In this document: piece by piece, positions 1,221 to 3,982 of the stretch
Layout of the letters: the number at the start of each line of letters is the position of its first letter
Position numbering within the stretch: the first letter of the stretch is position 1
From: Longimicrobiaceae bacterium
Lineage (GTDB): Bacteria > Gemmatimonadota > Gemmatimonadetes > Longimicrobiales > Longimicrobiaceae
DNA: 64,000 nucleotides
Assembly: GCA_036375715.1 (NCBI GenBank)
Contig: DASVBS010000047.1
Span: forward strand, 1-64,000
Direction: 5' to 3'
Position numbers and translations under genes: made by a program
Notes under the pieces: generated by a model
Databases searched by the model: none
What the model was told of the DNA's origin: nothing
The model's input: the letters and a program-made list of their open reading frames with translations, nothing else

Positions 1221-1246
1221 CGAAACCCGTGTGAAGTTCGTCCGTA
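1221..1246 (+). promoter_or_regulatory. ECF-sigma-like promoter of 41-aa peptide gene 1
   Basis: CGAAAC (1221-1226), 16 bases, CGTA (1243-1246). This matches the TGAAAC-N16-CGTA pattern known for Bacillus SigW/SigM-type ECF sigma factors except for the first base. The same element with the same spacing precedes the second gene copy (1618-1643). The ATG lies 47 bases beyond the CGTA. Confidence 0.5.
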
Positions 1247-1293
1247 GGGTGCTCTGTGGTTGAAGGGCATCCTCAATAACAGGAGAATTGCAC

Positions 1294-1419
1294 ATGTTCC
1301 GATATTCGATCGTTGTCAAGCTCGTCGAAGCCATCCGCGCTCCGCGTACGCGCGGCGTTCATGCCCTCTCGGGCTGGCGTTCCCGTACCGCCCGCGAGGT
1401 GCGGCTTCAGGCCCGGTAA
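1294..1419 (+). CDS. 41-aa basic peptide, tandem paralogue 1
   Basis: ATG at 1294 with AGGAG at 1281-1285 as ribosome site; TAA at 1417-1419. The product is 41 residues, strongly basic (ten Lys/Arg plus one His), begins MFRYSI and carries the block IRAPRTRGVHALSGWR at residues 14-29. It has no Cys, no signal peptide and no obvious membrane segment; residues 4-15 could form an amphipathic helix. It is 29/41 identical to the product of 1691-1816. In the identical 16-residue block, 12 of 16 codons differ synonymously, which shows selection on the protein. I do not recognise the family. A nucleic-acid-binding small protein, a membrane-active peptide or a RiPP precursor are possibilities; none can be shown here. 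Confidence 0.85.
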   Translation: MFRYSIVVKLVEAIRAPRTRGVHALSGWRSRTAREVRLQAR

Positions 1420-1440
1420 CTCCGCGTAGCGGATGAAGGC

Positions 1441-1475
1441 AAAGAGGCGGTCCGGAATCTTCCGGCCGCCTCTTT
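1441..1475 (+). terminator. Terminator of 41-aa gene 1
   Basis: AAAGAGGCGG (1441-1450) and CCGCCTCTTT (1466-1475) form a perfect stem. It is extended by CCGGA/TCCGG (1452-1456/1461-1465) around a 4-base loop, and ends in a T run at 1473-1475. It begins 21 bases after the stop codon. Confidence 0.85.
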
Positions 1476-1617
1476 CCGTTGGTGTGTCGACGCCAACTCC
1501 TTCCCCGTGTCAGTCGCCGGAACATCACCCGCGCCACGACTCAGCCCGACTCCTGCGGAAATCCGGTTTGCGCGACCGGTGGCCGGCCGGCCGTCCTGCA
1601 TCGGCTCAAGCCAAGCT

Positions 1618-1643
1618 TGAAACCTTCGCGCAACCCGTCCGTA
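1618..1643 (+). promoter_or_regulatory. ECF-sigma-like promoter of 41-aa peptide gene 2
   Basis: TGAAAC (1618-1623), exactly 16 bases, CGTA (1640-1643): a full match to the TGAAAC-N16-CGTA ECF pattern. The 12 bases between the shared GAAACC and GTCCGTA blocks are poorly conserved between the two gene copies, while the boxes are kept. Confidence 0.55.
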
Positions 1644-1690
1644 AGGTGTGCTGCGGTTGCAGGACAACCTCAGACAACGGAGCAGAGAAA

Positions 1691-1816
1691 ATGTTCAGAT
1701 ATTCGATCATCTCCCGGCTCGTCGAGACGATTCGTGCCCCTCGCACCCGCGGTGTGCACGCACTCTCGGGATGGCGCGCTGGCGCAGCTCAGGACGCTCG
1801 GATGCAGGTGCGGTAA
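1691..1816 (+). CDS. 41-aa basic peptide, tandem paralogue 2
   Basis: ATG at 1691 with GGAG at 1679-1682; TAA at 1814-1816. The frame is open upstream to 1433, but the ATG at 1691 matches the start of paralogue 1 exactly in sequence and in distance from the leader, so it is chosen. The product starts MFRYSI, has the same block IRAPRTRGVHALSGWR at residues 14-29 and ends MQVR where the first copy ends LQAR. Differences cluster at residues 7-9 and in the C-terminal third, so the centre is the constrained part. Function unknown. Confidence 0.85.
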   Translation: MFRYSIISRLVETIRAPRTRGVHALSGWRAGAAQDARMQVR

Positions 1817-1841
1817 GAATCGAGCGAAATCCTGGCCACTG

Positions 1842-1874
1842 AAAGACGGCCCGGAGATTCTCCGGGCCGTCTTT
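1842..1874 (+). terminator. Terminator of 41-aa gene 2, possibly bidirectional
   Basis: AAAGACGGCCCGGA (1842-1855) pairs with TCCGGGCCGTCTTT (1861-1874). It is symmetrical, with A and T runs on both sides, so it can also end the minus-strand yceI-like gene whose stop is at 1880. Confidence 0.85.
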
Positions 1875-2659: not shown

Positions 2660-3142
2660 TCAGAAGACGGGACCTTTGGTTCGCTTCGTCGTCACCAGCA
2701 CGACCCCGGATTCTCCCCTGGCGCCGAATATCGCGGTGGAGGGAACGTCCCGACGTACCTCCACGGCGGCGATTTCCCAGGGATAGAGTAGCCGCAGGTC
2801 GCCCGGAAGAGCCTCGGCGCCGTCGATGATCACCAGCGGGACCCGCCCCCGCAGCAGAACGAGGAGATCGTCGGTCCCCCGGGCGCGCACGACCAGGCCC
2901 GGCACGCTCGACAGCACTTCCTCCACCCGCTCCGCCTGTACCCACCGGGTGCGTGTGATGCCGTTGCTGGTGATCGAGATCGGGAACCGCTCGAGCTGCG
3001 GGAGCACCGGGTCAGGGGCGCCGGCCGAGCTCGGGCGAGTGTCGCCAGAATTTCCGATCGAGGCGCAGGCCGTGGTCAGGAACAGTAGGCCGGTGGCGAG
3101 GAGTGCCCGGGGGGCGGCGGAGCGGCGGATCTGGATGGACAT
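2660..3142 (-). CDS. Lipoprotein with a stand-alone TonB-receptor plug-like domain
   Basis: 160 residues. A signal peptide ends in a lipobox (LTTACAS, Cys at about residue 26). Residues 60-155 look like the plug domain of a TonB-dependent receptor: VEEVLSSVPGLVVRARG, then LVIIDGAEA and the conserved IAAVEVRRD...AIFGARGESGVVLVTTK. No barrel follows, so it is not a receptor. Such lone plug-like lipoproteins occur in Gemmatimonadota and Bacteroidota without a settled function. It is divergent from the sigma/kinase operon at 3404. Confidence 0.8.
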   Translation of the reverse strand: MSIQIRRSAAPRALLATGLLFLTTACASIGNSGDTRPSSAGAPDPVLPQLERFPISITSNGITRTRWVQAERVEEVLSSVPGLVVRARGTDDLLVLLRGRVPLVIIDGAEALPGDLRLLYPWEIAAVEVRRDVPSTAIFGARGESGVVLVTTKRTKGPVF

Positions 3143-3403
3143 GGGAGCCTCCGTTGAGGGGAGGGATCCCGGGGTGCGGCGGGCGCTCTGTCAGCCTCTT
3201 CCGCGAGGATCCCTCGTCGGTGCTCCCTCTGCTCGGATTCCTTTCTCGAAACGGCTCAACGCTTCGTGAACCGGGTCGGCGGTCTACATAAGGTCGCCGT
3301 CGGCTAGTGGATACGCCGTCAGGCTTGGATATCGCCGGTGCGGTCACTAATCTGGAGAAGCCCACCGCCGGCTGTGCCAGGAGTCCCCCACGGCGCAGGC
3401 AAC

Positions 3404-3982
3404 ATGGAAGCACCCGCTTCCGAGGTCACCCGACTGCTCCATCGCTGGAGTGACGGCGACGAGGGCGCGCTCGCTCGGCTGATCCCCATCCTGTACGAGC
3501 GATTACGCTGGATCGCCCGCCAGCGGTTGCGCGGCGCAGCCGCAGAGCATTCCCTCAACACGACTGGGCTGGTCCACGAGGCCTACATCCGCATGGTGGA
3601 GGCCCCTCACCGCACCTTCCGGGACCGCAGCCATTTCCTCGCCCTTGCTTCCCGTGTCATGCGTTGCCTGCTGGCGGACCACGCGCGCGCCCGAATGGCG
3701 GCCAAGCGGGGAGCCGGGGCGGCAAGGATGGAGCTGAAGGAAGCCTTCCTGATCCCGGACGATCGGATGGAGGCCATTGCGGAGCTGGACGAGGCCCTCG
3801 CCCGCCTCGAGGCTCTGGACCCGCGCCAGGCCCGCATTCTCGAGCAGCGCTATTTCGGCGGTTTGTCGCTCGAGGAGACCGCGGCGGCGATGGACCTCTC
3901 GCTGGCCACGGTGAAGCGGGAGCTGCGTTCGGCCCGCGCCTGGCTGCTGGTCGAGCTCACCGCCGAGCCGCCCCTCCCATGA
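3404..3982 (+). CDS. ECF-type RNA polymerase sigma factor (TIGR02999-like)
   Basis: 192 residues from ATG 3404; an upstream GTG at 3338 would add 22 residues with no similarity to the family. Region 2 is visible as HSLNTTGLVHEAYIRM and FLALASRVMRCLLADHARA; region 4 is LDPRQARILEQRYFGGLS with the helix-turn-helix ETAAAMDLSLATVKRE. This subfamily is typically found next to Ser/Thr kinase genes. Its TGA overlaps the kinase ATG by four bases (ATGA at 3979-3982), so the two are coupled in translation, and the kinase or its sensor domain probably controls the sigma factor. Confidence 0.93.
   Translation: MEAPASEVTRLLHRWSDGDEGALARLIPILYERLRWIARQRLRGAAAEHSLNTTGLVHEAYIRMVEAPHRTFRDRSHFLALASRVMRCLLADHARARMAAKRGAGAARMELKEAFLIPDDRMEAIAELDEALARLEALDPRQARILEQRYFGGLSLEETAAAMDLSLATVKRELRSARAWLLVELTAEPPLP

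Follow-up and report, generated by a model that had tools for sequence, protein, structure and literature searches.

Comparison with Described Systems

In Bacillus, the consensus promoter of SigW is TGAAAC-N16/17-CGTA (PMC2375139). Two tandem 41-codon units, A and B, occur in the window analysed here, which is the whole stretch of 64,000 nucleotides taken from a Longimicrobiaceae genome (the source genome; assembly GCA_036375715.1, contig DASVBS010000047.1). They resemble the B. subtilis SigW regulon in that the promoter words and spacing of unit B are identical to it, the SigW-like ECF sigma of the source genome carries the same promoter, and most of the genes recognised behind such sites have envelope functions. 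However, this sigma scores below the curated cut-off, its anti-sigma-like protein was matched weakly, and the peptides belong to no Pfam, NCBIfam or PDB family.

Stress-sigma-controlled small proteins are a known kind, and short genes of this sort are routinely missed by annotation. As in this general class, each unit is one short gene that has a stress promoter and a terminator to itself; unlike the described members, the units show no sequence relation in Pfam, NCBIfam, PHROGs or PDB and are defined by the core V-x-x-L-[SA]-[GD]-W-R. Neither this family nor the core that defines it turned up in any library searched. LsbB-type leaderless bacteriocins carry a C-terminal KxxxGxxPWE-type motif. 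One report (PMC5413573) describes an amphiphilic N-terminal helix in these bacteriocins. The peptides are likewise cationic, with an amphipathic N-terminus in several members and a Trp-containing C-terminal motif, but this motif is VxxL[SA][GD]WR instead of KxxxGxxPWE, the promoter is of ECF type, and no immunity or export gene was recognised nearby. Type I toxin loci are often duplicated in tandem, and the present units share with type I toxin-antitoxin peptides their small size and tandem copies; however, they are basic rather than hydrophobic, and no antisense gene was seen. Finally, the RAPP arrest peptide (PMC12992588) carries its RAPP-like motif at the C-terminus and is encoded ahead of a regulated gene. 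Peptides A and B both contain R-A-P, but in mid-peptide and as RAPR, and each gene is followed by a hairpin with no gene behind it in the same transcript.

Organization of the Tandem Units

Units A and B are both encoded on the plus strand, between positions 1222 and 1874 of the window, and each consists of GAAAC-N16-CGTA, a 47-nt leader with a Shine-Dalgarno sequence, a 41-codon gene and a strong hairpin. In unit A, the promoter (1222-1246) comprises a -35 element GAAAC at 1222-1226, a 16-nt spacer and a -10 element CGTA at 1243-1246, without the leading T of the full consensus (GCGAAAC). Its leader (1247-1293) contains AGGAG at 1281-1285, and its gene (1294-1419, stop TAA) encodes the 41-aa peptide MFRYSIVVKLVEAIRAPRTRGVHALSGWRSRTAREVRLQAR, followed by a terminator-like hairpin with a short U-run at 1438-1477 (-30.3 kcal/mol, z -6.4). 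The promoter of unit B (1619-1643) reads TTGAAAC at its -35 end, with GAAAC at 1619-1623, a 16-nt spacer and CGTA at 1640-1643, and presents the full sigma-W consensus TGAAAC-N16-CGTA. It is followed by a leader (1644-1690) with GGAG at 1679-1682, a gene (1691-1816, stop TAA) for the 41-aa peptide MFRYSIISRLVETIRAPRTRGVHALSGWRAGAAQDARMQVR, and a symmetric hairpin at 1842-1874 (-29.7 kcal/mol, z about -7.6). This last hairpin is probably common to unit B and the downstream neighbour, a YceI-family gene on the minus strand (1880-2455) that converges on it. The upstream neighbour, gyrB, ends at 827 with a hairpin of its own.

A sequence-only reading of this DNA had already described both promoters, along with strong terminators and a 54-base leader identical at 37 of 54 positions. 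The hairpins are indeed strong, but both U-runs are short, and a more stringent terminator scan, which asks for 5 T in 8, therefore reported none for either unit. The 37/54 count is right, although the interval 1240-1293 takes in the -10 element; measured from the end of CGTA to the ATG, the leader has 47 nt, 30 of them identical between A and B. Further upstream, the ungapped background identity of the two copies is mostly 4-9 per 20. Hairpins in the 5' leaders of both units were left out of the argument because the likely transcript start falls inside them.

Several other features were observed in this region. A 36-aa frame at 1058-1168 (MSPRALVTVLAVLSPVGCADSTAPSVVPSREPARVK) has the look of a tiny lipoprotein, with no evident ribosome site. 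On the minus strand, a lipoprotein-like protein of 160 aa is encoded on its own at 2660-3142; it bears a SusC/RagA plug signature and lacks the barrel. At 3338-3982, an ECF sigma classed as Sig-70_X6 (TIGR02999) precedes a Ser/Thr kinase-like gene; this sigma is distinct from the SigW-like one discussed below. In addition, a second GyrB-like gene occurs near a contig end elsewhere in the source genome (G000:C5:106607-106963); its C-terminal part is 82% identical to the gyrB of the window, and it may represent a paralogue or contamination.

Selection on the Peptide Genes

Peptides A and B are identical at 29 of 41 residues and share the block IRAPRTRGVHALSGWR, in which 12 of the 16 codons differ, all synonymously; both counts had been given correctly before. 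Independent codon draws would be expected to produce 9.4 different codons in this block, so the synonymous sites of the pair are saturated. Saturation is consistent with the old duplication that had been proposed, but yields no age. Over the complete genes, 38 of 123 nucleotides differ, 24 of them at third positions. In 20,000 simulations with 38 changes placed randomly, the number of amino-acid changes averaged 22 and never fell below 14, so that the observed number, 12, was never reached. The dN and dS estimates were 0.18 and 1.95 by NG86 and 0.23 and 1.12 by YN00, corresponding to a dN/dS of about 0.1-0.2. An excess of synonymous change was also found among the homologues described below, with dN 0.036 and dS 0.36 between those of G017 and G014, and four synonymous against no nonsynonymous changes between those of G014 and G013. 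Purifying selection on the peptide genes, as the sequence-only reading had claimed, is thus clear from these comparisons, and A and B are paralogous, self-contained, protein-coding units. The first six codons (1294-1311 and 1691-1708) differ at only 1 of 18 nucleotides despite the saturated synonymous sites of the core, a near-identity that could reflect a constraint on translation start or on the RNA.

A Lineage-Restricted Peptide Family

The peptide family comprises 10 units, eight of them beyond A and B, in 8 of 21 genomes of the taxonomic family, representing three genera; several of these genomes are incomplete, and absence from any one is weak evidence. Homologues outside the strain, the check originally proposed, are therefore present in seven genomes other than the source genome. 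A single-sequence search clearly recovered only A and B. A two-sequence profile retrieved MLRYIISLFTAPLEAGRAQGVQDLAGWRNAARGRGPESTQRSGTAGGI from G001, behind GAAAC-N17-CGTA and a 44-nt leader, and a promoter-plus-GWR pattern searched across the order retrieved MLAPTYKKVLRKVMSALMLSPAEVPGLAGWRNAAR from G019. Profiles of the C-terminal region added G010, G017, G013, G014 and a tandem pair in G007, the last being the weakest family link by score (E 0.009). All units share the core V-x-x-L-[SA]-[GD]-W-R, and M1, V22, L25, W28 and R29 are invariant. The common plan is a peptide of 35-48 residues with a variable, often amphipathic N-terminal segment, the core, and a basic or small-residue tail.

The units of G007 and G010 have promoter, hairpin and neighbourhood in common, and both adjoin the same gene, which is read as encoding a putative ChrA-type transporter. 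The G007 pair lies in 297-nt direct repeats, 97% alike and spaced by 384 nt; this similarity indicates a recent duplication, separate from that of A and B. A hairpin with an energy between -28 and -41 kcal/mol lies at the end of six family units, and the leaders differ across genera in length (44-79 nt) and sequence. No neighbour is conserved across genera (gyrB/yceI, chrA-like, aceA-like and PAP2-like genes, named mostly from sequence reading), which fits a stand-alone gene. No homologue was found downstream of gyrB at the corresponding position in the family genomes, so the peptide family is not syntenic with gyrB.

Elsewhere in the phylum, a 26-position profile scored against about 21 candidates per genome in 395 genomes gave no convincing relative, within the limited reach of such short profiles, and no member was found in plasmids, phages or viral contigs. 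The peptides had no significant match in Pfam, NCBIfam, PHROGs or PDB, in agreement with the earlier impression that they match no known family, and Rfam gave nothing above threshold. Among the candidates rejected, L047-L049, from a scan of genome contigs, were short accidental matches within or opposite long frames, whereas L052, L064, L246, L126, L133, L120 and G041:C153 were antisense, within longer genes, or without a start, ribosome site or promoter. Taken together, this is a real lineage-restricted small-protein family, and we consider the gene-family and promoter part of our explanation highly probable.

Promoter Association and the Candidate SigW-like Regulon

GAAAC-N16/17-CGTA is located 65-105 nt before the ATG in 7 of the 10 family units. 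The units of G001 and G010 and both units of G007 were found by protein profile without the promoter, yet carry it, and the promoter is present in three of the four independent lineages that the protein alone revealed, a count that leaves out A and B as the starting observation and G019 as found with the promoter. The fourth lineage (G013, G014 and G017) has kept the peptide with no GAAAC-N-CGTA, which indicates that the SigW-like sigma is not essential to peptide function. In these three genomes (L330, L329 and L328, respectively; peptide type MLQIIINLPLVNAFVAPRGVVPGLSGWRRGGFNGYPRAV), a conserved, different upstream sequence takes the promoter's place. Across the source genome, the pattern occurs at 40 sites compared with 12 for the pattern read backwards, which gives a chance of about 6e-4 per unit that such a site lies in the 130 nt before any given gene. 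The majority of the 40 sites fall in possible long reading frames on either strand, so the regulon list includes chance sites. Another short-protein family of about 54 aa, from a different family of the order, was also observed behind GAAAC-N-CGTA (L190 in G137, MDERVRFLLRTAIRVEEQEGDLRIAELFRRMAGDL...; L121 in G150, MSVEQRIRQLLRAACRVEREGNLHVAEVLRKIAAESL...).

Contig C60 of the source genome encodes a 203-aa ECF sigma whose best NCBIfam match is SigW (1.9e-48; 164.8 bits against a cut-off of 209) and whose best PDB sequence match is B. subtilis SigW (5wuq, 1.4e-32); it is therefore described here as SigW-like, below the curated SigW cut-off. Its ATG lies 20-25 nt after GAAAC-N17-CGTA. A second site, GAAAC-N16-CGTA, shares bases with the end of the sigma gene and lies in front of the following gene, whose product weakly matches an anti-sigma. 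This pair, with a site before each gene, occupies 3948-2641 on the minus strand of the interval G000:C60:216500-223500 (L332) and is followed by polymer-forming-like and LiaF/toastrack-like genes, as named by sequence reading, making the cluster a candidate envelope-stress operon. Sites of this type also stand in front of the genes for LemA, for an outer-membrane efflux protein, for an HlyD-type adaptor, for a MarR regulator and for small membrane proteins. Two gene types, also named from sequence reading, keep the site across families of the order, supporting a conserved regulon: a helical acidic protein (L164 in G000, L200 in G041) and a YbjN-like protein (L155 in G000, L194 in G148).

Since the SigW-like sigma and the anti-sigma-like gene carry the promoter and other sites precede LemA and efflux genes, a predicted ECF envelope-stress regulon is well supported. 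The C60 sigma would be the factor that drives units A and B, and membership of this regulon would suggest a stress role for the peptides. The ECF control proposed by the sequence-only reading thus gains from the promoters of the G001, G010 and G007 homologues and from the sigma and anti-sigma-like pair, but does not extend to the G013/G014/G017 group. Envelope-stress responses in this phylum seem to have been little studied, and nothing direct came up in a limited search of the literature. A simple handle on envelope stress there is offered by a GAAAC-N16/17-CGTA regulon that includes a SigW-like sigma. Selection, a common promoter and a candidate sigma/anti-sigma pair make a defined small-protein family with a candidate regulator out of two 41-codon frames that had gone unnoticed.

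Possible Function of the Peptides

Net charge ranges from +3 to +8 across the members (A +8, B +6). A, B, G001, G010 and G019 have N-terminal 14-mers with a hydrophobic moment of 0.41-0.60, and N-terminal amphipathicity is weak in G013/G014/G017 and G007 (0.19-0.31); contact with a membrane is therefore favoured by five of the eight sequences and not by the others. The best N-terminal 14-mers of A and B have a mean hydrophobicity of 0.27 and 0.08. AlphaFold modelling of A and B gave low confidence (mean pLDDT 60), and nothing firm can be said on the fold.

In the explanation that we favour, envelope stress would free the SigW-like sigma from its anti-sigma, and the freed sigma would transcribe each unit from its own TGAAAC-N16/17-CGTA promoter into a short single-gene mRNA ending at the hairpin. 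The N-terminal segment of the peptide would then sit on the inner membrane, with the L-x-G-W-R core docking to an envelope partner, and tandem duplication would raise the dose. The regulon and the peptide features lead us to infer the stress signal, the membrane association and the envelope partner. Confidence in this complete account of SigW-like-driven small envelope or inner-membrane effectors is evenly balanced, and the membrane-effector step, predicted from peptide sequence, is given slightly less than even weight. A bolder version is possible but rather doubtful: V-x-x-L-[SA]-[GD]-W-R may be a new docking core for an envelope target, carried by self-contained envelope-stress units that were tandem-amplified repeatedly (separately in the source genome and G007) and placed under another promoter in one clade. 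If true, the novel docking-core family would indicate that the phylum's SigW-like stress response has a branch yet to be described.

The nearest rival is a stress-induced cytosolic regulator or adaptor, with the same genes and promoter, whose L-x-G-W-R would bind a soluble partner such as a protease adaptor, or an RNA polymerase or ribosome factor. Conservation in the core motif rather than in the amphipathic N-terminus is consistent with such a role, as are the net charge and the weak N-terminal amphipathicity of some members; however, the envelope character of most recognisable genes behind the promoter argues against it, and we consider it unlikely. The remaining readings are less likely. 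An exported antimicrobial or signalling peptide, either leaderless bacteriocin-like or a modified-peptide precursor with its C-terminal Trp motif read by a receptor, would agree with short, cationic sequences, an N-terminus that is amphipathic in several members, the conserved W motif and tandem copies in two genomes. This is improbable, as no transporter, immunity or modifying enzyme was recognised among the neighbours read (gyrB, yceI, chrA-like, aceA-like and PAP2-like genes, only part of them profile-scanned), and strong core constraint with cross-genus conservation is unusual for arms-race peptides.

A dual-function sRNA, primarily a regulatory RNA whose leader and early codons pair with targets and only secondarily a messenger for the peptide, could account for the similarity of the A and B leaders (30/47) and of their first six codons, which contrasts with the saturated core. 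Nevertheless, across genera it is the leader that varies and the peptide core that does not, Rfam contained no match above threshold, and synonymous saturation of the core reflects selection on the protein there, making this reading very unlikely. More improbable again is a type I toxin-like membrane peptide, tandem-duplicated and held under an RNA antitoxin: small size, an own promoter and hairpin, and tandem copies in the source genome and G007 would suit it, but A and B possess no convincing hydrophobic transmembrane stretch, a scan for sigma-70-like antisense promoters (a weak test, with other promoter types outside it) found none, and the stress promoter is dedicated to the sense gene. 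The possibility that these are random reading frames that happen to lie beside promoter-like words can be dismissed, since, even though the genes are very short and relatives of 25-35% identity are hard to tell from noise by score alone, such an origin is contradicted by the dN/dS values and by the recurrence of the promoter at a similar distance, and of the hairpins, in independent genomes.
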